Shown here piece by piece: positions 21,128-51,928 of a stretch of 64,000 bases of DNA. The notes under the pieces are model-generated. The model ran no database searches and was not told the origin of the DNA. It saw only the letters and a program-made list of their open reading frames with translations. Positions within the stretch are counted from its first letter, which is position 1. Every line of letters begins with the position of its first letter. A program made the position numbers and the translations under genes. The DNA comes from Pascua guehoae (Eukaryota; Basidiomycota; Tremellomycetes; Trichosporonales; Trichosporonaceae), in assembly GCA_001600415.1 (NCBI GenBank), contig BCJX01000007.1:652032-716031 (forward strand), written 5' to 3'.

Positions 21128-22372
21128 ATGGCAGACGAGCGCCCAGCAGCGACGGGTGGCCGGAAGCTAAAGCTCCTGGCCGTCACGTATGGGACTGAAG
21201 GCGATACCCGACCTCTGGCGGCCCTGTGCCGGGGCCTCATCGATGCAGGCCACCAAGTGCACCTTTTGGCCGACACTGCGACGCTTGTGAATGCGCGCGA
21301 GCTCGGTGTGCCGACCGACGCTCTTGCCGGGGACATTCGGGCGGCGTTTGAAAACAAGATGCAGGACATTACGACGGCATTGACGGCCATTGTCAACGAG
21401 AACAGCACGGCGTGGTTGCGGCAGACGATCGACGCTGGGCGGGGGTGCGACGCCATCATCATCTCGGGGTTGACGGCGTTTGTGGGGCTGTCGGCTGCGG
21501 AAGCACTGGGGATTCGCCCAATAGGCACCATGCTATTCCCTCTCACGCCGACGGGCGAGTTTGGCTCGCCGTTTATCCCCTTTGATGTCTGCTGGCCGTT
21601 CAAATGGGTGAGCCACTTGGCCATCAACGAGCTCGTATGGCGCACGCTCCGCACGGCGACAAACGAGGCGCGCACCGCCGCGGGTCTCGCGGCTCGGAGC
21701 TCCAACTGGAGCGGGCACGCGATGCTGTATGGATTCTCCCCCGCGCTCATCCCGCCACCGAAGGACTGGGAGGCCAACCAGGTCGTCACGGGCCAGTGGA
21801 CACCGCCAGAGGACAGCGACTGGGCGCCACCCCCGGACCTGCTCGAGTTTCTCGACGACGGAGAGCCCCCCGTCTACATTGGCTTTGGGAGCATGGGCAA
21901 ACCCGCACCACACGTCCTCGACGCGTTGGTCGGCGCCCTCGCGACCCGCCGTGTCCTCTTCTACGCCGGCTGGAGCGGCGTCGACGCCTCGACCCTCCCG
22001 ACCCACTGGCATGTCGTAGGGCCTACACCCCACTCGTGGCTGTTCCCCCGCACGGCGGTGGTCATCCACCACGGCGGGTCGGGCACAACCCACTCGGCAT
22101 GCCGCGCGGGCGTGCCCAGCATCGTCTTGCCGTTTGCCGGCGACCAGTTCTTCTGGGCCGCGCGCGTGAGAGACGCTGGCGTCTCCAACGGCGTGCTCTG
22201 GGGCAACTGGGTGACGCCCGCCAAGCTCACGGTCGCGCTGGAGTTTGCGGAGAGTGCGCAGGCAAAGGAGGCGGCGAAGAAGCTCGGCGACAAGATGAGA
22301 CAAGAGCATGGAGTCGTCAAGGCGGTAGAGATTATCGAAAGCACGATGGCGGATGGCGCGATGGCGAGGTGA
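21128..22372 (+). CDS. GT1-family UDP-glycosyltransferase (sterol/lipid or antibiotic-type)
   Basis: A single exon of 414 residues; I take the ATG at 21128 (MADERP). It should transfer a sugar from a UDP-sugar to a lipophilic acceptor. The N-terminal GT-B lobe begins LAVTYGTEGDTRPLAALCRG, the typical G(T/S)xGDxxP loop. The C-terminal donor lobe has VYIGFGSMG and HHGGSGTTHSACRAGVPSIV followed by PFAGDQFFWAARV, where His and Asp/Gln contact the sugar nucleotide. No signal peptide, membrane segment, or PH/GRAM domain is present, unlike large fungal sterol glucosyltransferases (about 1200 residues or more); the length matches bacterial macrolide-type and soluble fungal enzymes. Absence of introns in an intron-dense locus is notable. 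Acceptor unknown. Confidence 0.9.
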   Translation: MADERPAATGGRKLKLLAVTYGTEGDTRPLAALCRGLIDAGHQVHLLADTATLVNARELGVPTDALAGDIRAAFENKMQDITTALTAIVNENSTAWLRQTIDAGRGCDAIIISGLTAFVGLSAAEALGIRPIGTMLFPLTPTGEFGSPFIPFDVCWPFKWVSHLAINELVWRTLRTATNEARTAAGLAARSSNWSGHAMLYGFSPALIPPPKDWEANQVVTGQWTPPEDSDWAPPPDLLEFLDDGEPPVYIGFGSMGKPAPHVLDALVGALATRRVLFYAGWSGVDASTLPTHWHVVGPTPHSWLFPRTAVVIHHGGSGTTHSACRAGVPSIVLPFAGDQFFWAARVRDAGVSNGVLWGNWVTPAKLTVALEFAESAQAKEAAKKLGDKMRQEHGVVKAVEIIESTMADGAMAR

Positions 22373-33728: not shown

Positions 33729-34906
33729 GGTTGGCCGAGTGATTGTCTGCTGAGGAGGGGGAGATAGGGTGTGGAGAGTTAAGCGGTGCAGCAGTAGGGG
33801 GAAGGGGTGACAGTCAAGTGGTGGCAAGGTGAAGAGTGTTGGAGAGTTGGTGATGAGAGAGTGTGAGACGAGACAAAGGGGGGGATCAGTGCGATGGGTT
33901 CAAGTACCAGTTGGAGGCGTTGTTGCATAGGACCCCGGTTTCCGTCTCCGTCGGTGTCGGTGGGGGTGTGATGGAGACTGGGGGCGGTGGGTAGGAGAAC
34001 AATAAGGGGGTGGTGGACATTGGTTGTTATTGTCTCGAGGCGCAGTGCCCCACCCCGCACACGCCCCCCCCCCCGCACTGCCCGACGCCACCCGTGCCAC
34101 CCATGTCCCCAGTAATGTGGGTGACTTCCGGGTTACACGGGTGTGCACGTACAGTCTATAAACAGATCCAAAATAATGTGCAAGTCATGCATATGCTCGA
34201 GTTTGACAACCTATCCGTGCATGCAGAGTTGAGCACCAGAAAGCCACTGCTTGGTACGACAATCGCGGGCATCACACAGGTCTCTGTAGTATGTAGCAGG
34301 CTCAACTAGCAATGCCGACATGTCACTCACCGGATCACTGTATACTGTAGATCTGCAGAGCACGTCTGTAGCCGTGCACGCGCGGGTCAGATACTGTGCG
34401 CTTTGCGTCCAATCCCACAAATGTCAAGCCATGCAAGCCGCGCGAGGCAGATAGGGCACAAATGTTGCCTGTCATGAGCTCGCACTTCCAAATCACTCAC
34501 CACATGCTGAATGCTCGACGTCATTGCACCCAATGGGTATATGAATATTGTATCCCTTGCAGGCCTGTCGTTAGCCAAAGTTGACTGCCCCGCCCCGCCC
34601 TGCCCCGCCGTACCCCGCGTGAGCTCGCCTCACCCCGCCAGTGATACCCAGTGGTACCCAGTGGTACCCAGTGGTACCCAGTGGTACCTGGTGGTACCTG
34701 GTGGTCCCCAGTGGCCAGTGGTGGTCCCCAGTGGCCAGTGGTCCCCCATGGCACGGACAGCCACCCAATACGCACTAGTGCCATCCGTCTGCCCCCGCCT
34801 CACTCGCACACTGCCAGGCGCACACTTTTCACCTCTCAACCTCTTCTCGTCATCTCTCTATCCAGTCATTATTTACAGCGCAGTATACATAGCCATAGCC
34901 ATAGCC
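33729..34906. other. Intergenic, divergent, with a 10-bp minisatellite
   Basis: Separates the minus-strand gene from array gene 1. Apart from the GTGGTACCCA repeats I see no feature. Confidence 0.6.
34641..34745 (+). repeat. GTGGTACCCA minisatellite
   Basis: About ten tandem copies of a 10-bp unit, GTGGTACCCA drifting to GTGGTACCTG and GTGGTCCCCA, about 160 bases upstream of array gene 1. Confidence 0.95.
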
Positions 34907-37180
34907 ATGTCCCGCGCTGCTCGCTCTGTGAGCGCCTCGCTCGCCAACCGAGCCCTTCCTCGCGACACTCCGTCGCTCAACCCCACCGGCACCACTGCCG
35001 ACAACAACGGCCCCGAGCCAAACACCGCCGGCCCTCTGCCAACCCACGCCGACGACCACCCCACCCCGCTCGGCCACCATCGCGACCCGGACAGTCCACC
35101 GCGCAGGTTTGACCGCCGTGGCAAGCACGCGGTGCGCGGTGCCCCCGTGCGCGACCCACCCGGCTCTCGCGATGCCGACGTCCGCCGCCAACAGTCGGCT
35201 AACACTGTTCACGCTCGCACGCAGGCCCGCAGCGAGCCCACCAAGGACGACATCTGCCGCCAACAGTCGGCCAAGACTGTGTACGCTCGCGCACCCACCC
35301 GCGCCGAGCGCCCCAAGGACGACATCCGCCCCCAGCAGTGGGCCAACACTGCAACCCACGGTGCCGAGGTGCGCGCACGTCGCGTCGAGGCGATCCGCAA
35401 CCGCTTGCCGCCGGGATCCTACTACGGCGCTGGCGCCGCCGCAACCACCTCGGCGGCACACAACAAGGACGACCGCCGCGGCCGGCAGCCCGCTATCGCT
35501 GCCACCACCTATCAGCTCCCCTGGCCCGTTCCTTTTGCGGCTGGGGTTCCGTCGCTGGCCCGAGACTGGCACGCCCTCGCCCACGGCCCTCCCATGTCGG
35601 TCGCCGAGGCGATTGCCATTGGTGAGAAGGAGAAGAGAGCCCGCGTCGACAGGTCACGCTCGGCCAACGGCAAGACTGTGCCTTCGCTGCCGTCACTGCC
35701 CGCCCACCCCAACAACTCGCAGGCGTACGAGCACGCGACGGGGACGTCGAACAAGCAGCGCACGACCCTCGTCCCACCCGCCCCCGTCCGCACCATGCCC
35801 GCTGTCCCGCACGGCGTACCAGTGCGCGCCAGCGATCGCTCGCATCGCAGCGCCTCTCCCGCCAGTCGCTGGTCTGCCGTCGTTGTCGCTCCGCCCGCAA
35901 TGGGCCTCCCCAACACCGTCTCCTTTTCGGTGCTGCCCGGCGCCAGCCAGCATGCCTCGGCCGCGTCATCGTCTCGCGCGCCCACGACAGCGCTCACGCC
36001 GTCCGAGCGCGATCTGGTGCGCCGACAGCGCCAGCGCGGCTCCAAGGCCAAGGCGGTGGGCGATCAAGTCGTGCAGCGTGCGCGCATCAACGACAGCTTC
36101 ACCGAGGTGAGGCTGTCGTTTTATCTCGACCGCAAGATCCTCGGCGAGAAGGGCGAGACGTTGCACGAGGAGCGCATCCCGGTTCACCCGGCCAAGGCGG
36201 GCCCCATTCGGCCACACCGCTCGGGGTACTCCTACTGGAAGGAGAACCACCCCGAGCAGTACGAGGAGGCGCTCCAGGCGCACAAGGCGGCACGACGGGC
36301 TGCTCGGCGCGCGGCTCGCCAAGCTGCTCGACGCCGGATCGCTTCTGCTTCCACTCCTGCTCCCGTTGCCGCTCCCGCCCTCGGCTTCCCCGCCGTCCCT
36401 CCCGCTCCCACGACGCCATTCCCGGCGGCTCCGGAGAGCACGGCCTCAACCCCAACCCACCTCGTCGACATCGGCGAGAACGAGGCCGTCAACTCTACCA
36501 GCGCTTCGGGGCCAAGCAAGGTCTCCACGCCTCGATCTCTCCGCGTCATCGCCGAGGACATTGCCGACAAGTTCATCTTTCTCGAGGGGACAGCACGAAC
36601 GACTGAGTCGCCCCACTTCGAGCTCCCCCAGAGTCTCCAGCCGCTTCCCAAGACAGCGGACACAAAGGACCGCCTGATCCGCGCCGTCAAGCGCTTGACT
36701 GTCCTCACTCGAGCCCACGCGCATGCCAACGACCTTGTCGACCGCACTGGCCGCTACCTCGAGGCCATGTACCTTCCCGCCACTGTTCGGGACGACCTGC
36801 GCGGAAAGCGCGACATCTACCGCTTGGAAGTAGAGGGTATCGGAGAGAAGTTGGCAGAGCAGGCCCGTGAAGTCTGTGAGCTGCAAGCAAGTTTGTCGGA
36901 GAAAAGGAAGTGGTTCCATCCCTGGACCGTGAAGTCCCTCACGTCGAAAGGCGAGAAGGAGGGGAGCAGCGTGCCTCAAGCCTTTGTGACTGGCATTGCT
37001 GGTGCACCATGGGGTCAGTGTGGCGGCCCACTCACCTTCATTTCCACCACTGGCCACCTGAGCATCAAGGCGCGCTCATACGGCGAGCGTCTTGTTACCA
37101 CCGAGGTCAACATTGATGGACAGTGGAGGGCGGCGACCTACGTCTCAGAGCGAGAGTCCTGGGAGCTGGAGCGTGTATAG
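34907..37180 (+). CDS. Array family gene 1 (uncharacterised, disordered N-terminus + conserved C-terminal module)
   Basis: Single exon; the start at 34907 (MSRAARSVSASL) is preferred because the open frame further upstream runs through the minisatellite. 757 residues. The N-terminal part carries three to four copies of a K-D-D motif spaced about 22-60 residues (TKDDICRQQSAKT, PKDDIRPQQWANT, NKDDRRGRQPA). Residues about 420-490 include IRPHRSGYSYWKENHPEQYE and an Ala/Arg helix. The C-terminal module starts TKDRLIRAVKRLTVLTRAHAH, is helical for about 100 residues, and ends FVTGIAGAPWGQCGGPLTF ... DGQWRAATYVSERESWELE. No signal peptide, membrane segment or catalytic motif. Followed by the shared 3' block at 37261. 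Function unknown. Confidence 0.85.
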   Translation: MSRAARSVSASLANRALPRDTPSLNPTGTTADNNGPEPNTAGPLPTHADDHPTPLGHHRDPDSPPRRFDRRGKHAVRGAPVRDPPGSRDADVRRQQSANTVHARTQARSEPTKDDICRQQSAKTVYARAPTRAERPKDDIRPQQWANTATHGAEVRARRVEAIRNRLPPGSYYGAGAAATTSAAHNKDDRRGRQPAIAATTYQLPWPVPFAAGVPSLARDWHALAHGPPMSVAEAIAIGEKEKRARVDRSRSANGKTVPSLPSLPAHPNNSQAYEHATGTSNKQRTTLVPPAPVRTMPAVPHGVPVRASDRSHRSASPASRWSAVVVAPPAMGLPNTVSFSVLPGASQHASAASSSRAPTTALTPSERDLVRRQRQRGSKAKAVGDQVVQRARINDSFTEVRLSFYLDRKILGEKGETLHEERIPVHPAKAGPIRPHRSGYSYWKENHPEQYEEALQAHKAARRAARRAARQAARRRIASASTPAPVAAPALGFPAVPPAPTTPFPAAPESTASTPTHLVDIGENEAVNSTSASGPSKVSTPRSLRVIAEDIADKFIFLEGTARTTESPHFELPQSLQPLPKTADTKDRLIRAVKRLTVLTRAHAHANDLVDRTGRYLEAMYLPATVRDDLRGKRDIYRLEVEGIGEKLAEQAREVCELQASLSEKRKWFHPWTVKSLTSKGEKEGSSVPQAFVTGIAGAPWGQCGGPLTFISTTGHLSIKARSYGERLVTTEVNIDGQWRAATYVSERESWELERV

Positions 37181-37260
37181 AAGAGCGCAAAGGATCACGT
37201 CTCTAGTAGCAGGTCTGCATGCATGTTGTTAGTTTGCCGTATCGATGCCTATTGATTGCG

Positions 37261-37325
37261 CTCAGTAGTTTGTCCATTGTCGTTGTCAGATCACCATTGT
37301 CAATCAAACCCGTAGTCTCCTCTGC
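37261..37325 (+). repeat. Array 3' flank block, copy 1
   Basis: Begins CTCAGTAGTTTGTCCATTGT and continues CGTTGTCAGATCACCATTGT to CAATCAAACCCGTAGTCTCC. The same order of motifs recurs after the other array units. Confidence 0.85.
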
Positions 37326-37336
37326 CCACGTCGGCG

Positions 37337-37839
37337 GACAACAAGTTTCGCCTTGTCCGTGCGGTGAAACGTCTTGCCGTTCTCACGCGCGCACAAACAC
37401 ATGCCAACGAGCCTCTCCAACGGAGCCAACTTTGCCTCGACCGCGCGACACTGCCCAAGTCTGTACGCAGCGACCTCCGCGGCAACCTCGACATCTACCG
37501 GCTCGAGAGAGAGTGCATTGCGCAGAAGATCGCCCACCAGGCCGACAAGATCCACGAGCTCCAGGCGACCCTCTCGGCTTCGCGCAAGTGGTACCACGCC
37601 TGGACGGTGAAGGGCTTGTCTGCCGCCAAGGTGGCCGCGAGTTTTGTGTCTGCTATTGCCGGCGGGCCCTGGGGTCAGTGTGGGTCTCCACTCACGTTCG
37701 TCGCTGGCGGCGGCAAGTTGCGCATCAAGGCGCGCAGCTATGGCGAGAAGCTGGTCACGGCCCAGCTCCTGGTCCGCGGACGTGGCAGGAGGCGGAATAC
37801 GTGCCAGATAGGAAGCTGTGGGTCCCGGCGAGACAATAG
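37337..37839 (+). pseudogene. Array family gene 2: C-terminal module only, frameshifted
   Basis: Begins DNKFRLVRAVKRLAVLTRAQ and runs through DLRGNLDIYRLERECIAQKI to FVSAIAGGPWGQCGSPLTF and IKARSYGEKLVTAQLLVRG, close to array gene 1. Near 37783 the frame slips: the continuation WQEAEYVPDRKLWVPARQ lies in another frame and stops at 37839. The N-terminal half is absent, and there is no plausible start codon. It begins right after the 3' flank block of gene 1. A truncated, broken duplicate. Confidence 0.85.
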
Positions 37840-37995
37840 TAGGGGCACATAGTGGGAGATGCATTGTCATGTAGTCAAGTGGTGTCAAGATACCTTCACC
37901 GGATCTTACCGTCTCAGAGCGCAGCAAGTCGTGTAGTTTTATTGTTCGACTATGCACCCAACTTGGTGTGCCGTTACAACACCTGTTGATTCTGT

Positions 37996-38040
37996 GAGGT
38001 TGTTCATTGTCGTTGAAACTCGTCGTCTCAACGTCGGTTT
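37996..38040 (+). repeat. Array 3' flank block, copy 2
   Basis: GAGGTTGTTCATTGTCGTTG then AACTCGTCGTCTCAACGTCG. A shortened version of the block, lacking the central part. Confidence 0.8.
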
Positions 38041-38331
38041 GGCATCATGCTATGTTAGATGAGTGTGCTCTTGTCCGGAACCAAAGTCCAAACTCAAACA
38101 CGAATGAAGCGTGATCCGCAGTGTTCAACAACATGACAACAGGCTTCGGGTGAGAAAGCCGCACATGGCCCCGGCTGCACAGTCAACCCAACCTGCTTGT
38201 AACCGTCCCCGTACCGTCGTTCCAGCTCCAACCGCTCGTTAAGCCCAGTTCTCATCCGCCGTCGCCAGCAACGCCGAGGAACACTTCACCGCCGCCTCAG
38301 CTGTAAGCCACGGCATGCACCACCAGCTGTC

Positions 38332-38421
38332 AGATTGCTTTTGCTGGTTGCCTGTAGAGCTCGCGTTCGCCCCCCTCGCAGTTATCGCTTCTCTCTCTAC
38401 AGCCCACCAAAGTGCGCCCGT
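38332..38421 (+). repeat. Array leader block, copy B
   Basis: Starts GATTGCTTTTGCTGGTTGCC and ends CCAAAGTGCGCCCGTTAATG. Aligns with 39424-39540 and, more weakly, 44284-44400. Here it runs in frame into the pseudogene that follows. Confidence 0.8.
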
Positions 38422-39015
38422 TAATGACGACGGCGGCCGGCTCGTGTACGATGTGGTGAATCGTACTCGGGTCTCAGCGAAAGAAGCGGGCCAGATCAGG
38501 CCGCACCCCTCCGGCTACTCTTACTGGAAGCAGAACAACCCAGAGGAGTACGAGGCTGCCCGTCGCGCACACAAGGCATCTCGTCGTACTGCCACTGCGG
38601 CTGCTCCTGCCTGCTCCTGCCACCACTGCCCCTGCCACTGCCCCTGCCACTGCCTATGGCTCATCCCGCCGTTGCTGCCCCATCTGGCGCACCTACCCTC
38701 CGCCGCCACCGACCCCGTTCCCAGACTTTCCCGAAGTCCACAGTGACCTGCAAGGCCGGTGGGATATTCACAAAGGGCTTGACGGCCAAGGGGGCAGAGG
38801 GGGCCAAAGTTGCCCAGAACTTTGTCACTGGACTTGCAGGCGGTCCTTGGGGGCAGTGCGGCGCACCGCTGATCTTCCTCTCGGCGGGAAACGAGACGCG
38901 CGTCACGGCACGGAACCGGGGCCGTATGATTAACGTCGAGTTCAACTTCACTGGCAAGTCGCAGCAAGCACGTTACTTTGAAGAGCGGTGGTCATGGGAG
39001 CTGGAGCGGGATTAG
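38339..39015 (+). pseudogene. Array family gene 3: internally deleted and frameshifted copy
   Basis: The first part includes AGQIRPHPSGYSYWKQNNPE EYE followed by an Ala/Arg run, the counterpart of IRPHRSGYSYWKENHPEQYE in gene 1. After a Cys/His-coding low-complexity stretch (38600-38660) the frame changes, and the final part from about 38800 is FVTGLAGGPWGQCGAPLIF ending WSWELERD at 39015. The long helical segment between them is missing. Splicing could in principle join the two frames, but no good GT-AG pair is obvious and the deletion removes half of the module. I consider it a pseudogene; the 5' limit is uncertain. Confidence 0.75.
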
Positions 39016-39180
39016 TAGAAAGGCCTTTCATATGTCATAGCAGCTCTATGCAGTTCAGTTTCTCAAATATCTCTTGACTCATCGTGCCCGTGTTGCAGCG
39101 TATCAGGCATGCAGATCAGTGATTCGAACATGTGCCTAAATTAATGTACCCAAATTACTGTGTCCGTCACAAAGTCTCTC

Positions 39181-39255
39181 GATTGTGTTAGGTTGTCCAT
39201 CATCGTTGTGGTCAGATCACAACCGTCAATCAAGCTCGTCGTCTCAATATTGCTT
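39181..39255 (+). repeat. Array 3' flank block, copy 3
   Basis: GATTGTGTTAGGTTGTCCAT, then GTGGTCAGATCACAACCGTC and AATCAAGCTCGTCGTCTCAA. Follows array gene 3. Confidence 0.85.
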
Positions 39256-39423
39256 TGACAGCAGGCCGTGCCAGATGCGAGTCGTGGCTTCCTCCTTGTC
39301 CACTTCACCGCCGTCTCAGTAACGGTCAAATGACAGGATTGAACTCGCCGTCGCAGTTTTTGCCCGCTCGTCAGACGAATGTGCGTGCAAGGCGGTGCGC
39401 GCGCCACTGCATGCTCTGCTAGA

Positions 39424-39540
39424 CTGCGTTTGCTGTTGTCTGGGGGCTCGCCTTGGCCACCCTCGCAGTCGTCGCTTCTGTCGCTACAGCCGCGAGCGAC
39501 GTGCCGACCACCAAAGTGCCTCCGTTAATGATGCGGCATT
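39424..39540 (+). repeat. Array leader block, copy A
   Basis: Starts GACTGCGTTTGCTGTTGTCT and ends AAAGTGCCTCCGTTAATGAT, roughly three quarters identical by eye to copy B. One frame reads hydrophobic (LALATLAVVASVATA) like a signal peptide, but no start codon or gene continues from it. Confidence 0.8.
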
Positions 39541-39780
39541 TTCCACCGTTGCAAAACACAAAACGCTTTTGGGAAACGGCACGTCGGTAGGCGCGCCAGA
39601 CCATGCAACCCCAACCCACCGACGAGTAAACCAAAACAAATCAGGTGCGATCGGAAAAGGGTCATGCTTGTTCGTCCACCCGCGCAGTGCTCGGCAGGTC
39701 ATTAGGCGGTGAGGAGCATGAGTAGCCGGTGTTGCAGCCGACACGCCGACGGCCTGCCTCGATGTGACGGGTCCTGTACA

Positions 39781-39840
39781 CACCCACACCCACACTCACA
39801 CCCACACCCACACCCACACCCACACCCACACCCACACCCG
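39781..39840 (+). repeat. (CCCACA)n hexamer repeat
   Basis: About ten copies of CCCACA/CACCCA. Short and internal; I do not take it as a telomere. Confidence 0.95.
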
Positions 39841-39841
39841 C

Positions 39842-40160
39842 TCACCAGGTCATTCAACTGCTCCCAGGAGCTAGGCAGAGCCCATCAGGGAGTCGCATAG
39901 TGGCATGCGACTGGCATGTGACTGGTCTCCTGCTCACTCACGCAACGCCAGGCCACTGCTCCCAGGCAGAACCGACCAGGCAGTCGCACAGAAGCATGCA
40001 ACTTGTCCCCTCCTCACTCACGCAACGCTGTGCCAGTGCTCCCAGGCAGAACCGACGGGGCGGTCGCACACATGCCTGCGACTTGTCTCGTACGCTAACC
40101 ACGGCCATTCCACTGCCGCCAGGCAAAGCCAGCTGAGGCAGCGGCAGAGAGGCATGTGGT
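39842..40160 (+). repeat. About 80-bp tandem minisatellite, 3-4 units
   Basis: Units share CTCACTCACGCAACGC, CTCCCAGGCAGAACCGAC and a GTCGCACA...GACTTGTC ending; clear copies at about 39935-40015 and 40015-40095, with diverged ones before and after. Confidence 0.85.
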
Positions 40161-40387
40161 GTACGAGCAGGGCACCGCACGAGGCTGTACAGCTGCCCAG
40201 GGTACGAGCAGGGCACCACAGGGCCTCCGCAGGGCACCGCGAGACTCGAGTGAAGTAAATTGGGTGCGAGAGATTAGTGGAACGGCTGCCCTGGATGTCA
40301 CCTGCCTGCCCGATGCCCGAACTGGCGGAATGCCTGTGCCCGTACAGTGTTTGACAAGGGTTTTGGCCCATGAGCCCACGGCGCGCG

Positions 40388-40393
40388 ACGCGT
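40388..40393. promoter_or_regulatory. ACGCGT box upstream of array gene 4
   Basis: Part of GCGCGACGCGTCCAAA, about 320 bases before the start. The same GCGCGACGCGTCCA is found upstream of array genes 5 and 6. About 125 bases earlier all three also have GTGCGAG(A/G)GATT. Confidence 0.5.
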
Positions 40394-40715
40394 CCAAAGT
40401 GTCAAGACACATACACCCACACACACCCAAGGCACGAGAGCCAAGGAAATTCCAACATCACTCACCATCGCGAATGTCGTCCAAACCAACCAATGGGTAG
40501 GATTCTGTTGTCAGATGTGGTTTGACAGTTAGCACTAGTCGCTGTGGAGCTGTACCGCCTCACCTGCCAGAAGCCAGATGCACTAACGTGCTGGGAACCG
40601 CCTGACAGCCCCCGTCGCTGGCACCCCCCCCCAGGCGTGAAGTTTTTAAGCGAGCTCACCACCCCATCTCTTCTTTCTTCTTCATCATATCTTACAGTAA
40701 AAGTCGAGCTGTACC

Positions 40716-42485
40716 ATGTCGACCGCTTGCTGTGCTGCCGGGCTCGCCGTGTCGAGCCCGTCTCTCCCTGGCCGCCTGGCCATTGTCACCGGTGAGTAGC
40801 CCCCCCCCCCCCCCCCCCCCCACTTTTTTTTTTTTTTTGTTCGCTCGCTAACGGCCAGGCTCGAAGAGCCAGAACTCCCCCCGCGACCTCGCGTCGCTCA
40901 TCAAGGACGACCGCTGCGTCCGCCAGCACGCTGAAGCTGGCACCATGGGCGCCGCCTCGACGCTGGCCCGAGGCGACCAGTGCCTCGTGGCGTCGGCGGC
41001 AGCCCCGGCGTCGCCCCCTCGCTCGCCCCCGCGCCCCCCCTCGTCGCCGCCCGCCGCGTCCTCGCCGTCGCCCCCGGTAACGCCGGGGATGCTCGAACTC
41101 GAGACCCGGCGTTACCGGGTCACCGCCGCGTCCCCGAGGTTCGCCTCGGACGAGAAGCGCCTGGAGGCGCGCCGCGAGAAGTGGGAGTTGTGGCGCCTCC
41201 TTGCGTCCACTCCCGCGTCCCCCGCCGCCGCTCTCGGCGAGAAGAGCTCGTCGCCCGCGCCGGCCGCCCACCCCGCGCACGAGTCGCCGNCGCCNCCCGC
41301 CTCGCCCGCCGCCCACACCCCGCGCTCGCCGCTCGCCGCCCCCGCCCCCGCCCACTCTCCCGCCGCGCTGGCAGCCTCTGGCTCTAGCGCGAGCGTAGCA
41401 AAGCCGTCGGCCGAAAAGGCCGACACCAAGGACCACCGCGAGGAGGAGGACTTTTCCCCTCCCCGCCCCATCATGTCGCCGCGGCGCCTCTTTGCGCCGC
41501 GCTACCGCCGCTCGTCGTCGCCGTCGTCGCCGTCGCCCGCCTCGCCGTCGCCCGCCTCGCCGTCGCCCGCCTCGCCGTCGCCCTCACCGGAGGGTATGCT
41601 GGCCGCGTCGTCGTCGTTTGGTGTCCGCCCCCGCCCCGCCACCCCCCTCGCGCAGCCGGTCTTCGGCGCGCCGCGCACTCCCAGCTGGGAGTTCGTCCAG
41701 CCCCCGCCGCCCGTCGTCATTGACGACGTCTTCACGGACGCCGGTGCCAACGACGGCGCGCACGACGTCCCCGGCGGCGGGGACTGGGAGTTTGTCACCG
41801 GCGGTGGCAACGTCGACGCGGAGGAGGAGGAGGTCGCCGCCGAGTCGCCCGTGAGCGACGAGGCGTTTTTGTCCGAGTCGGAGTACTTGGCGCTCAAGCG
41901 CCAGCGCTCGGCGGAGTTTTTCGCCGACCTCGTGACCGAGTGTACCGCGGTCTCGTTCCTCGAGGGCGGCGTGACCGACCTCGACTTTGCTGTGGCGCGC
42001 GCGCGGTCGCGCGTTGACCACTTCGAGCTCGCGGCGCCGTCGTCCCCCGTCTCGCTTGGCCCCACGCCAGCCGCCACCACCCCGCCCACCCCCACCGCGC
42101 CCGCCGCCGCCGCCGCCGCCACCCCGCCCCGCCCCATCACACCTTTCGGGCCGTACCGGCAGTGGGTGCCCACGCCCGCGCTGCCGCCTTTCGGCAACGG
42201 GCAGGCGAGCGGAGAGGAGGAGGAGGAGAAGGCCGAGCAGGGCGAGTCTGCCGCGGCGCCGACGACGGCCGAGCCGAGCGCCAAGGCCTCCGACACGTAC
42301 CTCGCCAACGACGGCGAGGAGGAGGCTGGAAGCGTCGAGGCCGCGCCCGAGGCGTCTGCCGTGGACGAGCCCGAGCCATGGCACACGGGCCCCCGCCGCC
42401 ACCACCACCACGGCCTCCGCGGCCTTCCGCCACCCCTCGGCGTCGCGACGACCGCGACCGAGGACGACGACGAGGAGGACGACGA

Positions 42486-42516
<31 letters not shown>

Positions 42517-43299
42517 AAGGAGGAGGAGGAGGACGACGACGAGGACACGGCCGCGTCCACCGGCACCGTCGCCAGCCCGCCCCACTGGGACTTTGTCGAC
42601 GCCGAGTCGACGGGTCCGGCGCGGGTGCGTGTCGTCGACAGCGAGGACGAGTACGTGTGGATCGATGCTGGTGCCGACGTGGATGACGGTGAAACCGTCG
42701 TCCCGGAGGACGACGCGGACTTCCGCATGGGGTTGGTGTTCGCGCCGATTGGCGCGGGCCAAGACCCGGTGGCCCAGCTGGAGCGTGCCCAGGTGCGGTA
42801 CGCGTACTGCCTTCGTGTCGTGGATGCCGCGGAGGCCATCCACGCCGAGGGCAGCGACGAGCTGTACCTGGCGCGCGTCCCGCTGGACGCCTACTGCGAC
42901 CTCGCCGAGCGGCACGCGGCGTTTGGTCGCCACGTCGAGGCCCTCCAGGGGACTGCCGAGAGCTGGCGCGGCTACGTCGCGCAACTCGCCAAGGCGGTCC
43001 CTTGGTACAAGCGGTGGCAGGTGCCGCTTGCAAAGGCCAAGGCGAACAAGGTGGCCGGCGACATCCCCCGCGGTGTCGTCGAGGCCATGTGCGGCCGTAT
43101 GTGGTCCAACTCGGTCGGCGGGGCGTCGGTCTTTGGCAACGATGCCAATGTCCGCGTCACCGCCACCGACACTGACCGCTGCGGCCGTGGCCTCATCGTC
43201 GTGGAGGGGCGCATCGGGGAGGACGAGTGGGTGCCGCTCGGTGACGACGACGAGTGGGTGCCGACCGCCGAGGGCAGGATGCGCCACGCGGTCGTGTGA
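40716..43299 (+). CDS. Array family gene 4 (uncharacterised)
   Basis: Two exons, 40716-40791 and 40859-43299, 838 residues; the first codes MSTACCAAGLAVSSP. Exon 2 starts at a phase-1 junction with the K-D-D element (LIKDDRCVRQHAEAG), the same layout as the duplicated exons of gene 6. Two unknown bases occur at 41290 and 41295. The middle is Ser/Pro/Ala and Asp/Glu-rich (S-P-A-S-P repeats at 41515-41585; Asp/Glu tract at 42460-42545). Two similar segments, W-E-F-V and W-D-F-V(D), punctuate it. The C-terminal module runs from KDPVAQLERAQVRYAYCLRV to IPRGVVEAMCGRMWS and EDEWVPLGDDDEWVP, closest to gene 6. No known domain; probably soluble. Confidence 0.85.
40800..40838 (+). repeat. C22 and T15 runs inside intron 1 of array gene 4
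   Basis: The 67-nt intron (40792-40858) is mostly a C22 run and a T15 run before GCTAAC and the CCAG acceptor. The T run may act as an extended polypyrimidine tract. Confidence 0.95.
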
Positions 43300-43396
43300 G
43301 GAGGAGGGCATGGGAAGGGGTGGGAGGTTTTTTTGTTGTTGTTTTTTTTAATGAAATCATGATGTCGTGACGACCAAGAGCCTGTTGCAAGCTTGC

Positions 43397-43470
43397 ATGT
43401 TGTTAGTAGTTTGTCCATCGTCCTTGTCAGATCAACATCGCCAGTAAGCTCGTCATCTCAACGTCCGTTA
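43397..43470 (+). repeat. Array 3' flank block, copy 4
   Basis: ATGTTGTTAGTAGTTTGTCC, ATCGTCCTTGTCAGATCAAC, then AAGCTCGTCATCTCAACGTC. The most complete copy. Confidence 0.85.
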
Positions 43471-43522
43471 AACCACACAGCATACAGGCATGTCTGGAAA
43501 ATTTGTAAGACTGCTACGCGCT

Positions 43523-43565
43523 CGAGCCTCACTGTGGCAGTCTCATGACTTTTCGAGCGCACCTG
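43523..43565. mobile_element. Solo terminal repeat of the 28.7/30.4-kb MITE family
   Basis: GAGCCTCACTGTGGCAGTCT ... GAGCGCACCTG, followed directly by TA, matches the right end of the element at 30409-30679 (GAGCACAATGTGGCAGTCCC ... GTCGCACCTG). No partner end was found nearby. Confidence 0.65.
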
Positions 43566-44283
43566 TAGGTTGGATATCAGTACGGTGTCCGTGAAGAGTT
43601 CAGATTCAACATGCACAGCGGGAAGTGTGACCGCCACCGTCAACAAGCTCTCAGCGATAATGGACCCCTGGCACGCAGATTCTGCACATTGAGCAACGAC
43701 GACAGCTTCAGACCCATGTCCTCTGAACGCCGTGTCTCGACCCATGTCCTCTGTGCACTCGTATCCTGGTACACTCGTATTCGGTGTATACTCGTGTCCT
43801 GCTCGTATCCTCTGCAGACCTGCACTCGTGTCCTCTGTAGACTCATGTCCTCTGCAGACCTCTGTCCTTTTCAGACCTGCCACCTCTGCAGACTTGTATC
43901 CCTGTACGCTGCAGAGATCGCAGCTAACAGGCCCAGCCAGCAGCAGCACCACCCCTACACTGCCACGTGGGTCGTGGATTTATTTTATTTTATGTTATTT
44001 TGTTCGTCTCTCGGTTTGCCTCCGAATCCCTCTGTCGCAATAAGTACACATCAATCATGGCCCAGGACACATGTAAGGCGGTGTATACGTGCACTTCCAG
44101 AGCCCAACGAGCGTTCTTTCTGGACAAGGCTTGGGATGGTGTCCCGCCAAGCCGTGATGACCCATTACCAAATGCAAGCATGTCGTACAGCCTGGCTGGG
44201 TCACAAACCATTGCACCGCACTGTTAGCGGTGCGCACAGTACGTCGAGGACACGTACGCGAGCCAAACCTCGGTGACAACCAT

Positions 44284-44400
44284 AACTGCTGTTGTCTGCA
44301 AGGCTCGCTTTCGCTACCCTCGCTACCATCGCTTCTGGCATGGTTGTCGTTGCCGCCAACCAAACTGGCCCCGCTGCCAGCTTCAATAACATGGTAAATG
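44284..44400 (+). repeat. Array leader block, copy C (diverged)
   Basis: AACTGCTGTTGTCTGCAAGG CTCGCTTTCGCTACCCTCGC resembles copies A and B but is more diverged towards its end. Confidence 0.6.
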
Positions 44401-44691
44401 TAGGCGTGCAGAGCCCATAATCAGCAAAAATAACAATGTGCACGACCAAAACCAAACAAGCCAGGCGTGCCCAAGGGTCGAGTTGTGCCTGTGACATTTT
44501 GCACAGCATCGCCCTTTGGCGTTCTGGTCGCCATCGGGTCACCGTACGTCGCTGTGTCAGGTCTGCAGGGTTGGGATTAAATACGACAAGGCATGCAGGG
44601 CACCGGCCACAGACACCGGGAATAACCAAACCTGGCAAACCCGGCAAACATCGCAGACCTGGTAAGATGGTCGAGTGCAAACACGCACGCA

Positions 44692-44776
44692 GGTGCACTG
44701 GTACATTGGCACACTGGTACACCGGTACGCTGCACACTGCACACTGGTACACCGGTACACTGGTACACTGGTGCAC
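44692..44776 (+). repeat. CTGGTACACCGGTAC minisatellite
   Basis: Irregular tandem units of ACTGGTACACCGGTACAC; shares the GGTAC core with the minisatellite upstream of array gene 1. Confidence 0.9.
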
Positions 44777-44974
44777 GATGGTCAGCGTAGTCAGGCGATC
44801 AGGCATCAGAGCTGTTTGTTGAATTTCGAGCAGGGCTCCACCGGCCCCCACCGGTCCCCAGACCGAACCTGCCGGACCCCGCTGGGTGCGAGAGATTAGT
44901 ACCAAATCGTCCCTAAATGTCAGCCGCCCCCGATTACGCAGATTGCCTGTGCTTGTGCAGGGTCTGGGCGCGCG

Positions 44975-44980
44975 ACGCGT
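44975..44980. promoter_or_regulatory. ACGCGT box upstream of array gene 5
   Basis: In GCGCGACGCGTCCACA, about 570 bases before the start; GGGTGCGAGAGATTAGT lies about 90 bases earlier and is identical to the sequence at about 40260 upstream of gene 4. Confidence 0.5.
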
Positions 44981-45287
44981 CCACATTGCGCAGATATTCA
45001 GGCACCATCGCTGCCGCCATTGCCCAACTTGCACAACCACTGCTCAACCCCGCCCAACCACGACAAACGTACCGCTCAGCATCCAGAAAATCGTCTTATG
45101 CGCGTGGTCCACAGTCGCAACGGTGCGGAGTGTCTGCATACGTGTGCGGCCTGTCTCGGGCTGCCAGTCAGCACTCGCTCGGCAGGCGCCTGCCTTTTGC
45201 CCGGCTGCTCCACCTCCACCTACCACCAGACTCAGACTCAGGTCCGTCCCATGGGCATTTCCACCATTGCGTTCCCCCCAGTCAGAT

Positions 45288-45360
45288 CGTTAGCGCCGTC
45301 TGCTGCGCAGCGGCACGTCAGACCTACCTCTCTTTGTCTCCCTCTGCTCTGATGCATGCT
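45288..45360 (+). promoter_or_regulatory. Conserved upstream block shared with array gene 6
   Basis: CGTTAGCGCCGTCTGCTGCG then CAGCGGCACGTCAGA and CTCTGCTCTGATGCATG; almost identical in order and spacing to 48588-48660. May be promoter sequence preserved by selection or by recent duplication. Confidence 0.7.
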
Positions 45361-45548
45361 GCCTGGTGCCACGCTCGCACAACGGTCGGCGTTTCGTTCA
45401 ATACGCCGTCGCTGTATCCAGACTGCCTACTGTACACGCTGGCTACCGCCCACGCTGGCCGCCAGGCTGGTACACAACGTGCAATTCTTACCTATTGTTC
45501 TTTCGTATCATTTTCTAGAGAGTAAGCGTAACAGGCAGTAAAGTCACC

Positions 45549-45807
45549 ATGCGCACCACCACCTCTAGCCCTTCGATCCGCCGTCGCATTTCCGACGGCG
45601 CGATCGCAACGACCAGCCCCGCCGTGCCCCCCGTCGGTGAGATGGGCGAAGACTCGCCGGAGCAGCGCCGCCGGTACGACACCGAGGGCAAGATGCCCGC
45701 CCCCCGTACCGAGCCGAGCGAAGGCTCCTCGCGCGCGTACAGCGCGCACACCGGCCACCAGGCCGGCAAGGACGACCGCAGCGCCTCGCAGTGCGCCAAC
45801 ACTGCCC

Positions 45808-45845
<38 letters not shown>

Positions 45846-47669
45846 CCGCCCGCCGCCGCTCGCCCGCCGCCCGCCGCCGCTCGTCCGCCGCCCGCCGCCC
45901 GCCCCATCCACATCCCCCACGCCGGGTCGTCTGGGTCCGACTCGACCCTCTCGTACGGTTCGTGGGAAGTGGCGTCGGTGACGAGCACCGACGTGGGCTG
46001 CTTTGAGCTGGTTGGCGCCAACCAGCCCACTGCCGGCACCGCCCCCGCCCCCGCCCACCCCGCCACGCCGCCGCGCCAGGTCGCCGGACCGGCCGGTCTG
46101 GCGTCAGAGTATGGACTGGCCGAGTTCCCGTCTCCGTCGCCGAGCGAGGAGTCCGAGGCCGAGTTCCGCTCGCTCCGTGCCGCGATCCCCGAGTTGGTGG
46201 ATGCGGAGGTTATGGCGGGCGGGTACGCCGTGATCGGGGGCCAGGTCCTCATGTCGGACCAGGCCCTCCTGGACGTGAGGATGGCGTCGTCGCGGCCACC
46301 GACCCCGGCACCCGACGCCGCGGCGCTCGAGTCGGACGACGAGGTCGAGTTTGACGAGGACTGGCGTGAGCGCCTGTCGCCAGAGCCGCCGGGGACCCCG
46401 CCAACGGCCGAGCAGATGGCGCACCGGGCCATGAACACCGGTTTTGACCCGCACCTGTTCGGGTCCGTGGGCGGAGCGACGCTGCCCGCCGAGCGCGCAG
46501 CCGGTGGAGACGGGAGTGAGCCGCGCGAAGCCTGCGGTCCCTCCTCGCACAGCAACCTCGCCGAGCTCGGCGAGGGCGAGGACACCAACGGTGACGCAGC
46601 GCCACCGTCCCACCACATGCTGCCCACTCCGCCGCCAGAGAAGGAGACCGCCGAGGCCGAGACCGAGATCCGCGCCGAGGCCGAGAGCAAGACCGAGGCC
46701 GAGACCGAGACCGAGAGCGCGAGCACGTCGAGCTCCGCCGCCACCACCACCACCGCCGCCGTCGTTGCCGAGGCAACGGCGACCTACATCACCACGGCCA
46801 CGGCCACCGTCGCGCATGCGCCCCAGCCTGCGCCGGACGCAGCTGGTGGCAGCGTGTCAGAGCCAGGCTCGTACACGGCGGAAGACGACGACGACGACAT
46901 GGCCTGCAACGACGCAGGCGACGAGGAGGACGAGGCGCAGGGTGCCTACGGAGCGCCGGTCGAGGAGACCCCGGCAGCAGACGCGGCACCAGCGCCAGAC
47001 ACGACGAGCCACGCCGCTCCCACCCGCCCCACCGTCGTGACGCGCGACATTGAGGACGACGTCGTCCTCGTCGACCTCTCAAACGGCCCCACCGCGGCCC
47101 CAACGTTCCAGCTCCCCGCCGAGCTCCAGGCGCTCCCGGCCAGCGCAAAGGGCAAGGACAGGCTCGCGCGCGCCATCAAGCGCCTTGTCGTCCTCGAGCG
47201 CGCCCACCGGTACGCGGCGCAGAAGTACCAGGCGGCCGGCGCGCACCTCGCCACGGCCATCTTGCCCGCGTCGGTGCACACTCACCTGGCGCGTCGTCGG
47301 GCCGAGTACGCCCTCGTTGTGGACCAGCTCGAAGAGGAGCTCAAGGAGGAGTCGCGTGTCGTCGCCGAGCTCCAACAGGTCACCGGCTGCTGCGAGTCGG
47401 TGTGGACCAAGGTCGCGCCGGCGTTCAGCCGCACGCGCCGCGCCGAGAAGGCGGGACTCGCAGTCTCGCACGACATCATCGAGGCGATTGCCCAGCACGG
47501 GCCGTTCCGCGACGCTGACGGGCGCGACCTGGTCTTCTCGACGGCCGACGCGCGCATCATTGCGCGCAACACGTGCGACATGGTCGTGAGCGAGCGCTGG
47601 CAGGACGGCGCGTGGAAGGCTGCGACGTGCGTCGCGTCTGGAGAAGAGTTTGTCCTGCAGGAGGCATGA
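45549..47669 (+). CDS. Array family gene 5 (uncharacterised)
   Basis: Single exon, 706 residues, starting MRTTTSSPSIRRRISDG. The family K-D-D element is present without an intron (AGKDDRSASQCANTA), immediately followed by polyproline from a C36 run. The middle is acidic and Thr-rich (AEAETEIRAEAESKTEAET near 46650-46720, EDDDDDMACNDAGDEEDE near 46885). The C-terminal module begins KGKDRLARAIKRLVVLERAH, parallel to KDRLIRAVKRLTVLTRAH in gene 1, continues helical, and ends DIIEAIAQHGPFRDADGRDL ... QDGAWKAATCVASGEEF. Thus it links the gene 1-3 branch to the gene 4/6 branch. No signal peptide or known domain. Confidence 0.85.
45809..45844 (+). repeat. C36 homopolymer in the array gene 5 coding region
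   Basis: Thirty-six C (12 codons) encode Pro. The length is a multiple of three, so the frame is kept as read; slippage or assembly error would break it. Confidence 0.95.
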
Positions 47670-48453
47670 GGCAGCAGGCGTGAGCAGAGAGTCTTTGTTG
47701 TACCATTATCATGCACTCTTAACGAGCAACAACCTGCTGCAACCACGTTGCACTTAGTAGTCTTCCCAGTTCAGTTAACACAATGAGATTGTTGTCAGGC
47801 TTTCGTAAACAATTCAACCCTCCAGAAGTACTGCTACACAACATACACATGTCAGCCCATGGTAGCTCATGATGATACGCAGAGATCCATGAGTCATTCC
47901 ACAGATCCACAAAACATCCAGTGTTGCGCGTGCAGGTGCATGTTGCGCCACACAACCTCGCGCATCTGCTTAACCGTTGTGTGTTGTTTCGTGCTGTCAT
48001 ATCTGCACAAACCACAAACCCGCGAGAGGCAAACCATGTTTGTGTAGGCGTGCACTCTGTCATTTTCGTTATACGTCGCCATCACCGCGAGGAATAGACC
48101 GTGGCACCATGGCACTTCCCATGGCGTTCGCGTCCGATGCAAGCAAACATTTTAGGCATGCAGGCATGCGTGGTGTTGTTTGAATTTCTGGTAGGCATGG
48201 TAGGGCCCCACAGGCCACCTACGGGGCACCCACCCACCACACGACGCTGCACAGCCCCTGCCCCGTGCGAGGGATTTGCGCTGGTCTGTCACTCTTCCCT
48301 AGATGACAGCCAGACTTACCAGCGTTTCCATCTTTTTTCCAGCGATGCACTGGCCCCCGATGCCCGATGCCCAGACGATTGTCCGTCTGTCTGCAGCTGC
48401 AGGCAGCTGCCTGTCTGCCTGTCTGCAGTCCGTGTGTTCCGCCCCGACGCGCG

Positions 48454-48459
48454 ACGCGT
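48454..48459. promoter_or_regulatory. ACGCGT box upstream of array gene 6
   Basis: In GCGCGACGCGTCCAAAT, about 455 bases before the start; third occurrence of the 14-base GCGCGACGCGTCCA in the array. Confidence 0.5.
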
Positions 48460-48587
48460 CCAAATGACCATCATGTCCAGGCACAGTCGCCGCAGCATTC
48501 CATCCCATCTCACAACCCAACACCCTCCTGGGCCGCATTTCGTCCAATCATCAGTACCCTGTTGCGCCGTTGCGTCACTCGTAGAGT

Positions 48588-48660
48588 CGTTAGCGCCGTC
48601 AGCTGCGCAGCGGCACGTCAGAAACACCCTCCCACCCACCCTCTGCTCCGATGCATGGCG
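48588..48660 (+). promoter_or_regulatory. Conserved upstream block shared with array gene 5
   Basis: CGTTAGCGCCGTCAGCTGCG then CAGCGGCACGTCAGA and CTCTGCTCCGATGCATG, matching 45288-45360. Confidence 0.7.
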
Positions 48661-48914
48661 CTGTGCCATGCGAGCGGGAGCAGAATGGCGTCTTGTGCTT
48701 GCCAGGCCGCACCCAGCCCAAGCCGCACCCAGCCCAAGTCGACCCATAGGCGGTCGACCCAAGGCCAGCTCCCAACCATGGCCGCTCCCAGCCAGTAAGC
48801 CACCCACCCAGCGACCCTCCACCCACCCACCCCACCGCCCGCGGCTGGCAGTTAGTAACAACATACCACCACATCTCATCTTCTCGTCAATCAAAACATT
48901 CTTGTGAATCCAGA

Positions 48915-51900
48915 ATGTCGTACTCGTCGCTCGTGACGATCGTGCTCTCCTCGCCCTCTGGCTCCCCCCGCGACACCATGTCGCTCGACGTCGCCGGCGG
49001 CGCCGCCATCAACGGCGGCAATGCCGACGACAACGTCAACAACGGTGAGCAGTTTGTTTTTTCTCTTCTCGTCTGCCCGCTAACGCCAGGCTCTTCCCCG
49101 AGCCCCAAGGACGACCGCTGCGGCGCCCAGCCCGCTTATGCTGGGCACAACTCTGGCGGTGACGGTGAGTACATCATTCTCTCGCCGCCCGTTAACGCCA
49201 GGCTCCTCCCCCCGCTACAAGGACGACAACTGCGGCGCCCAGCCCGCTTACGCTGGGCACCACGCCGGCAGCGACGCCGACGGTGAGTACCTCTTTCTCT
49301 TTCAGCCTGCTAACCGCAGGCTCGGACGACGGGGCCTATGCCCAACCGCCGACGCCGCCGCGCCTGCGTGCCGCGCGCGAACGCCGTGACCGCCTGGTAG
49401 CGGGGGCCTTCTACGGTCCCCCGGCTGGGACCAACCCCGCCGCCAGCCACGGTCACTGGCAAAACAAGGACGACCGCCGCCTCCCGCAGCAGGCTAACGC
49501 TGCCGCTGCCGGCTCCTCGAGCCGCAGCAAGCCCAACCTCGAGCCGCTCCCGCTCGACAAGGACAGCAAGGACACGTCGGCCGCCACGGCCACCACCAAG
49601 ACCACCCGCGGCGGTACACCTCGCTCGCCCACCTCCAGCTCCCGTGGCCGCCGTCACTCGCGTCCGCCCAGCCCCGACTCTCGCCCTCCGAGCCCTGGTG
49701 CCGAGGGCGAAGAGAACGTCATCCGCGCCTCCTCGGCACTTGCCAGGATGGCAAACAGCACGCCCCCCGCCTCCCCCCCAACCACCGGCTCGTCTCGCCG
49801 CGGAGGATCCCTCCTGTCCGCCGTGGGCCTCGGACGCGCTCCGACCCTCGCCCCGCGCTCGAGTGTGTCGGTGGCGTCGCGCCACCTCGTCGTTCCGTCC
49901 GCTCCTCTCTCGGAGCGTCTGAGCTCACAGAGCTCATCGTCGACCCTCGTCGGCAGCTCGCGCTCCCCCTCGCCCAAGCTCGCGGCGCTTGCCTCGCCCA
50001 TCAACATGGGCCCCCGTGCGCTGGAGCGTCGCGACTCGTGGGATTCGTCGGGAGGCGAGAGCGACTCGGACGACGGGTCGCTCTACTACGTGTTCAACGA
50101 CAACCCGTGGAGGACCCCGCTGTGGGTCCCGGTCGCTAGCGTGCCGGTGCAGCGAGAGCCACCTGCCGCCAACTTGGGCACGGTGGACCTGGACGAGCGC
50201 ATCCGGCAGATCAATGCCGAGATGGACGCCGTCGACCAGTCGCGCACCCCCCTCGACACGCCCAACCTGTACGATGTCGAGATCGACTCGCCCGCTGCTG
50301 CTGCCGGCGCTGGTGCTGGGCCTGCACCCGGCGCATCCGAGAAGAGCAGCCCTGAGACGTCGCGCCCAGGCCTTTACAAGGGCAAGGCGAAGCGCACGAC
50401 GGCGGACTCGCTGGCATCGTTGGCAAGGGAGGAGGCGACGGGCGGCCCCTCTGTCAAGCGCTCGGGGTCCATCGCGTCCATGTCGAGCGCCATCCTCGAG
50501 CTGCCTCAAGTGCAGCAGGCGTTGTTTGACGGATGCCGTCCCAACGCCAACCTCGGCGACCTCTCGAGCAAGTTTGAGCTCGTCAACACTGTCCCCGACT
50601 CCTCGCCCGTTCCGGCGGCGGCTACCGCGCAAACCTCAGCGGGACCGTCGAACGCGATGTCAGTCGCAGACTACTGGCTTGGCAGCTCGAGCCTCCAGAG
50701 TCACTTCCCATCGCTGTGCGCCCGCTTCAAGGCGCAGGCGATGAAGAGCAAGAAGATCCAGGCGCAGTCGCAGGCGCCCGCCGATGCACAGGCCCAGCAG
50801 CAGGCCTCCTCCCATGTGTCCGCGACCAACTCGCCCGCCCTCCCCCCCAGCAACGTGCCCGCCGTCCAAGGCACCTCCGGTTCTCCTCCTCCTCCCATCA
50901 ACTTGCCGGCCACCGAGCAGCCGGCTGGGGACGTGGACGAGACTGAGGTGGTGACCGGACTCGGCTCGGGCGACACCGGCTCCGACGTGGGCGGCAACGA
51001 TGCGGACATGGTGGAACCGGACACGGACCCCGCGCTTGATGCGGAGGCGGCTACGTCTGACGCGGCTGAGACAGCCACGAGCGAGGTCGTTTCCGAGAGC
51101 ATGGGAGCATCCGGTGAGGTGGATGCGAGCGAGGGTCCCGCGCAAGTGGCGGACGTCGCCAACAGCAAGAACGGCGGGAGCATGTCCACCCGCGAGGCGT
51201 GGTACGCGCGCAACAGGCGCGAGCGCGACAACGACAAGGATGGCGCGATCGAGGGCGACAGCGAGGCGAGCACCCAGACGGTCGCGGACCCTCAAGGTCC
51301 TAGCGACCTCTCGCCAGGCGCTGGATCTGTCGCCGACAAGACCAAGGACAACGATGGCGCCTTCGACTGGCGCCTCTCGCAGGCGTTCAGCGCCGCGCCG
51401 GTCGCCAAGGACCCGATGGTCCAGCTCGAGTCGGCCCACGTGCGGCACCTCTACCTGTGCCGCGCCATCGCGCACGCCGAGGCGCTCCTGCACAAGGGGC
51501 GCGACGCCTTCAGCAAGGCCTGCGTGCCGCTCTCGGTCTCGCGCAAGATCAGCGCACGGTACGCGGCGTACGTTGGCAACATTGCCGACCTCAAGGGCCG
51601 CGCCGAGGAGTGGCGCAAGGCGAGCGAGATGTTCGAGCGCAAGATTCCGTTCCACCGCCGCTTCCGCCTCCGCGCCACCAAGCAGAAGGCGGCAAAGCTC
51701 GCGGCGGCGATTCCGGAGGCCGTAGTTGCCTCGATGGCCGGGCCGTTGTGGAGCGACGAGAGCGGCAGACCAACGTTCATCTTTGGCCGCTACTCGACCG
51801 TCTTCCGCGCGAGGGTGTGCGACAAGGCGTCTGATGTCGTCGACATGATTGTCGGCGAGGTTTTGGAAGGAGAGGAATGGGTGCCCATGGCCGCCTTCGA

Positions 51901-51928
51901 CTTGGGCGATTGGCTAGCATGGGACTAG
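48915..51928 (+). CDS. Array family gene 6, with tandemly duplicated small exons
   Basis: Four exons: 48915-49044, 49090-49164, 49202-49282, 49320-51928; 964 residues. Exons 2 and 3 (75 and 81 nt) are copies of each other: KDDRCGAQPAYAGHNSGG and KDDNCGAQPAYAGHHAGS; all three introns are phase 1 with similar ends (gtgagtac ... ctaacgccag), so exons can be added or skipped without changing frame. A further K-D-D element (QNKDDRRLPQQANA) is in exon 4. The middle is Ser/Pro-rich then acidic. The C-terminal module runs from KDPMVQLESAHVRHLYLCRA through IPEAVVASMAGPLWSDESGR to EVLEGEEWVPMA, closest to gene 4. No known domain or localisation signal. Confidence 0.87.

Follow-up and report, generated by a model that had tools for sequence, protein, structure and literature searches.

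Six genes on the plus strand, g1 to g6, form a tandem array in the window (the whole stretch of 64,000 nucleotides analysed, which covers 652032-716031 on a 1.44 Mb Pascua guehoae contig, well away from either contig end). The array spans 34907, the start of g1, to 51928, the end of g6, and contains four intact genes (g1, g4, g5 and g6) and two broken ones (g2 and g3), as the first-pass annotation had it (Table 1). The set of members given there was nonetheless incomplete, as it missed g0, on the minus strand, and the open-frame starts listed for g4 and g6 were too far downstream: both genes require introns, so they start upstream of those frames. The genome comprises 33.6 Mb in 28 contigs; three of the 13 contig ends read start with CCCCCTAA-type repeats, with N found at some others, and the same repeat (TTAGGGGG) is given as the seed for telomeres in Cryptococcus neoformans in one published report (PMC3990503), which points to a Tremellomycete as the likely source. 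Genome size and GC content are also in keeping with Trichosporonales.

Table 1. Features of the array, with positions counted from the first base of the window.
Feature	Position	Strand	Description
g0	32043-33728	-	561 aa; divergent orientation relative to g1; module 32046-32672; likely seventh, divergent member
g1	34907-37180	+	Intact, 757 aa, no intron required; module ~36608-37177
KDD in g1	35243-35271, 35315-35343, 35465-35493	+	
g1 middle module	36059-36340	+	Genome match to g3 only (E 1.3e-13, threshold 0.1)
g2	~37277-37852	+	Broken; C-terminal module only; 5' part lost; frame change near end
g3	~38243-39015	+	Broken; frames differ between middle module and C-terminal end; without the helical hairpin
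MCB-like block, g4	40380-40396	+	Identical 13-nt site at 40385
g4	40716-43299	+	Intact, 838 aa; module ~42781-43296
g4 exons	40716-40791, 40859-43299	+	Proposed 67-nt phase-1 intron
KDD in g4	40903-40931	+	
[WF][ED][FL]V in g4	41686-41697 (WEFV), 41785-41796 (WEFV), 42586-42597 (WDFV)	+	
MCB-like block, g5	44967-44983	+	Identical 13-nt site at 44972
Upstream block, g5	45287-45358	+	83% over 72 bp with g6 block
g5	45549-47669	+	Intact, 706 aa; module ~47127-47666, nearest g1
KDD in g5	45768-45796	+	
[WF][ED][FL]V in g5	46002-46013 (FELV)	+	
MCB-like block, g6	48442-48464	+	Identical 13-nt site at 48451
Upstream block, g6	48587-48657	+	Counterpart of the g5 block
g6	48915-51928	+	Intact, 964 aa; module ~51356-51925
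g6 exons	48915-49044, 49090-49164, 49202-49282, 49320-51928	+	Proposed introns of 45, 37 and 37 nt, all phase 1
g6 tandem exon-plus-intron duplication with KDD	49075-49323	+	Units of 112 and 118 nt; intron signals
KDD in g6	49107-49135 (exon 2), 49219-49247 (exon 3), 49466-49494 (exon 4)	+	
[WF][ED][FL]V in g6	50573-50584 (FELV)	+	

Tandem repeats lie in two intergenic positions, with 10-bp units (CCAGTGGTAC) just upstream of g1 (34638-34752) and 80-bp units between g3 and g4 (39914-40087). A run of about 40 C bases is found at 45805-45844, and the g4 intron (40792-40858) contains runs of C and T; the homopolymer length may be misassembled at both places, which bears on the frame of g5. An interspersed repeat or transposon was considered as the cause of the array and rejected: in a check covering the intergenic segments 37181-38242 and 39016-40715, with simple repeats skipped by the search, the first matched, besides itself, only g1 coding DNA, and the second matched just one 51-bp place elsewhere.

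Two further genes in the window were characterized. The minus-strand frame at 15658-16644 is an exon of a kinesin gene, whose best relatives among solved structures are 5x3e, a kinesin-like protein, and KIF20A. On the plus strand, 21128-22369 is an intronless glycosyltransferase frame of 414 aa (EryCIII-like_C), with NCBIfam matches all under the cut-off and 50-60% identity to its best 120 database matches, the 17 of which with organism names are from bacteria. Judging from these matches, it is a candidate for gene transfer from a bacterium to the fungus, unless fungal relatives are missing from the database. Third-position GC content was 0.65 for the kinesin exon and 0.81 for the glycosyltransferase, so the values for the array (0.84-0.89 for g4-g6, 0.77 for g1 and 0.73 for g0) are not clearly special.

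The genes of the array share a C-terminal module. With the g1 module as a query against its own genome, matches were obtained to g2 (53% identity, E 1.6e-51, with one stop within the match), g5 (33%, E 1.6e-27), g3 (53%, E 5.1e-18) and g6 (26%, E 0.0015), and to a relic on contig C3 (E 1.1e-9); a match on contig C9 (E 0.033) was inspected and taken as chance. The g6 query matched g4 (33% identity, E 7.5e-15), with no further match at E up to 0.001. The g1 middle module also matched g3 (38462-38608; 61% over 49 aa) and no other place in the genome. The profiles of the two branches, g1/g2/g3/g5 and g4/g6, matched each other with an hhalign E value of 2e-8, and in a rerun the score was 62.1, versus a maximum of 23.9 among 200 column shuffles, none of which was as good. 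The first-pass annotation had considered the C-terminal ends to be related, and had named a lack of significant similarity between them as what would count against a family; the profile comparison found that similarity to be significant. The PWGQCG motif of g1-g3 and the EEWVP (g6) and DEWVP (g4) motifs that it described are all present. The region is GC-rich (up to 74%), with long frames on the opposite strand, and the similarity might therefore be attributed to chance or to shared composition in GC-rich frames, but the column shuffles (0/200) and pairwise E values down to 1.6e-51 rule this out for g1-g6 and make such an explanation almost inconceivable. The common origin proposed earlier is further supported by shared upstream DNA and by the intron pattern (see below), and g1-g6 are, with near certainty, one family.

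The minus-strand gene g0 is likely to be a seventh, divergent member of the array. It matched the g1/g2/g3/g5 profile with an hhalign E value of 4.6e-5 (0/200 shuffles as good), whereas its match to the g4/g6 profile was not significant (E 0.023; 2/200 shuffles as good), and as a single query against its own genome it recovered only itself at E up to 0.1. It has PW and a stretch DGxWRA in common with g1, and the EEWVP near its end in common with g6. The gene carries the module of the array family, as judged through the g1 branch, but contains neither the KDD motif nor the [WF][ED][FL]V motif described below.

A KDD motif (K-D-D-x4-Q-x-A) is present in eight copies in the four intact plus-strand genes (three each in g1 and g6, one each in g4 and g5), versus a mean of 0.0015 in shuffled N-terminal parts and none in 39,248 residues of control open frames. 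It is absent from the g2-g3 stretch, so the shared N-terminal K-D-D motif of the first-pass annotation held for g1, g4, g5 and g6 but not for the two broken copies. The strict DNA form of the motif was found at eight places in the 33.6 Mb genome, all in the array and on one strand (control, 0). The idea of a common genomic motif was rejected, as even a relaxed form had only 17 places in the genome, eight of them within the array, versus one for the reversed control. In unspliced g6, the repeated units measure 112 and 118 nt, which puts each of the three copies in a different frame; a proposed 37-nt GT..AG intron in each repeat unit returns KDD to one frame. We searched for an intron pattern with GTRAG at its start and a CTAAC-like box placed 2-6 bases ahead of the final three, and found seven instances on the plus strand, four of which are the proposed g4 and g6 introns, and seven on the minus strand; block shuffles gave 1.4 per strand on average. 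All four proposed introns, which are presumably spliced, are in phase 1. The two middle KDD exons of g6, 75 and 81 nt long, are therefore symmetric, and their duplication would not disturb the frame. In g6, a small KDD-bearing exon is duplicated along with its intron, and on the favoured reading the number of motifs has been changed in this way.

The module tree separated g4 and g6 from the other five modules (support of 100/99), with the order among those five not settled. The first-pass annotation placed g5 between the branches, but its module falls on the g1 side: a g5 module query matched g1 (37%, E 2.5e-24) and also g2, and g4 and g6 were absent at E up to 0.1. The DNA upstream of g5 resembles that of g6 over the block listed in Table 1 (E 1.1e-15; no matches in 30 shuffled runs) and that of g4 over identical stretches of 18 bp and 17 bp and a further 51 bp at 80%, whereas no shared block was found upstream of g1 at E up to 0.01. 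With a g1-like module and g6- and g4-like upstream DNA, g5 looks like a mosaic, and the upstream blocks were duplicated together with g4, g5 and g6. Module identity ranged from 25 to 58% across seven pairs, and dN/dS from 0.27 to 0.75, with dS near saturation. As dN/dS was below 1 in all seven pairs, the module is constrained, strong as its divergence is. A degenerate relic of the family's hairpin part, with three stops, lies alone on contig C3 (1048215-1048541; locus L022, ~3716-3949). This relic and the breakage of two of the six plus-strand copies would fit a decaying family with little present function, left over from an old expansion, but the constraint on the module and the frames of 561-964 aa retained by g0 and the four intact plus-strand genes make this account an unlikely one.

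Structure prediction, proposed with the first-pass annotation as a check of the C-terminal end, gave the same order of elements for g1 and g0: a helical hairpin, two helices and four strands. The helices were predicted at residues 72-106, 111-152, 158-173 and 177-184 in the g1 AlphaFold model, and at 116-149, 155-197, 203-222 and 226-233 in the g0 model, each followed by the four strands. Mean pLDDT values were 65 and 62 for g1 and g0, respectively, and strand confidence was 79 and 81 in the best two blocks of ten for g0 and 48-57 for g1. Because both models drew on one set of seven sequences, they do not agree independently of each other, and the matching predicted folds would provide support for, rather than proof of, the membership of g0. 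The helical hairpins of tubulin cofactor A and PI3K iSH2 come close in structure only. Foldseek returned no match in PDB at E up to 0.001 for the two modest-confidence models, in searches that barely covered the strands.

The earlier statement that no domain could be named was borne out in sequence searches. All seven proteins or pieces fell under every Pfam cut-off (g4 and g6 having been entered without their first exons), and for the modules alone the best match was ALIX_LYPXL_bnd, with an E value of 0.0077 in one of the seven members. In PDB sequence searches, the best match of the module profile was not significant (mL55, E 0.059), and full-length g1 matched nothing at E up to 1. The family is likely to be undescribed, although the large protein database consulted, when searched with three of the window's proteins, failed to recover even their copies from this stretch.

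The N-terminal parts are of low complexity, with 16-23% order-promoting residues versus 29-34% in the modules (five proteins) and a charge-hydropathy index of -0.047 to 0.006, which is borderline disordered. None of the five proteins contains a transmembrane-like stretch (no 19-residue window exceeding 1.36 on the Kyte-Doolittle scale), and no signal peptide was seen by eye at the first residues of g0, g1, g4, g5 or g6, so a secreted or surface role is unlikely. Divergence and clustering at a single locus are common in effector families, but with these two observations and a protein size of 561-964 aa, we consider it very improbable that the genes encode secreted effectors or surface proteins that interact with a host or other microbes.

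Fungal allorecognition families of the STAND/HET type are clustered and divergent, with broken copies and variation in repeat number. The array resembles them in all these respects, given its tandem arrangement with broken copies, its 25-58% module identity, the mosaic history suggested for g5 and its one to three motifs per gene. It could accordingly be imagined as a polymorphic array whose gene content and KDD number vary from strain to strain, a mismatch triggering a response. In contrast to those families, however, it gave no known domain of the death or NLR type in the Pfam scan, with no match to NACHT/NB-ARC, HET or HeLo at E up to 1 in the seven proteins or pieces, and dN/dS values below 1 in every module pair also argue against a role in allorecognition, which we regard as distinctly improbable.

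A second motif, [WF][ED][FL]V, occurs in five copies in the N-terminal sequence of three genes (three in g4 and one each in g5 and g6) and is absent from g1. The shuffled mean for this pattern, which was chosen post hoc, was 0.029, and none of 2000 shuffles contained as many as five copies. No copy was found in 157 other open frames from the window and four further loci (39,248 residues in total), a rough control for both motifs, because most such frames are not genes. The canonical Atg8-interacting motif is described in PMC10183829 as of the WxxL type (aromatic-x-x-aliphatic), and the WEFV- and FELV-type motifs of g4, g5 and g6 fit its [WFY]xx[LIV] sequence pattern, with flexibility borderline according to the index given above. 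The general [WFY]xx[LIV] pattern was found 23 times, versus 12.4 in shuffles (6/2000 with as many), but was not above the shuffles when counted per protein (813/2000 with as many).

These motifs raise the possibility that the genes encode selective-autophagy adaptors proper, with the aromatic motifs binding Atg8 and the module oligomerising on cargo. The five copies, three of them in g4, and the overall excess of the general pattern are in keeping with this, whereas g1 and g0 lack the motif, the per-protein counts show no excess, and motifs of the WxxL kind are widespread and of low specificity. Other peptide-binding domains also take such motifs. Selective-autophagy receptors likewise carry aromatic WxxL-type motifs in flexible sequence (PMC10183829), to which the array adds a predicted folded part; they differ in that the array has no known cargo domain and the motif is present in only three of the five intact members. 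The link to Atg8 is putative, and a dedicated autophagy role seems doubtful, although less so than some of the alternatives above.

An identical 13-nt MCB-like site with an ACGCGT core, CGCGACGCGTCCA, is present upstream of g4, g5 and g6 (Table 1); ACGCGT is the MCB, as given in PMC5448814. The 13-nt site was found 29 times in the genome, with three of these sites belonging to the array and one lying inside g0, versus three times for the reversed pattern, which is a weak control because its CpG content differs. When the three upstream regions were aligned with MAFFT, the g4 and g6 sites fell in register, whereas the g5 site did not. ACGCGT is absent between g0 and the g4 site, so none lies upstream of g1. 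The common site may confer co-expression on g4-g6, possibly at G1/S.

Taken with the findings above, an arm carrying countable motifs, joined to an end made of the hairpin and strands, suggests adaptor proteins. We tentatively favour, at somewhat less than even odds, a family of adaptor (scaffold) proteins that act in the cytosol or nucleus and arose by local duplication, scaffold being the best fit among the functions offered by the first-pass annotation. A long low-complexity N-terminal arm bears one to three KDD motifs and, in three genes, one to three [WF][ED][FL]V motifs, and is followed by the conserved C-terminal module. The predicted helical hairpin and strands may constitute an oligomerising or partner-binding domain, such that the C-terminal end would join subunits or a partner while the arm recruits others. 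The motifs of the arm would be putative binding sites, their number setting avidity, and the aromatic motif may recruit Atg8. The absence of the aromatic motif from g1 and g0, and of KDD from g0, counts against the adaptor reading, as do the low specificity of WxxL-like motifs, the borderline disorder index, the shared basis of the two structural models, the 29 genomic occurrences of the MCB-like site with its misalignment in g5, and the failure of g0 to find other members as a single query or to link significantly to g4/g6.

From the adaptor reading follow testable predictions as to whether the proteins oligomerise and bind partners and whether the genes are co-expressed. Should the module prove restricted to this group of fungi, the array would represent a family without a named domain that is growing at one locus, where intermediates (intact, mosaic and broken) are still present. 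It would also illustrate clearly how duplicating a symmetric exon can change the number of motifs. More speculatively, and with a small chance of being correct, the phase-1 exon of 75-81 nt may be a countable binding cassette, providing one to three KDD sites per adaptor on an oligomerising module that all share; strains could then vary in how many cassettes and which genes they have, generating a fast-evolving code for recruitment or recognition, possibly wired to Atg8 through WEFV/FELV.
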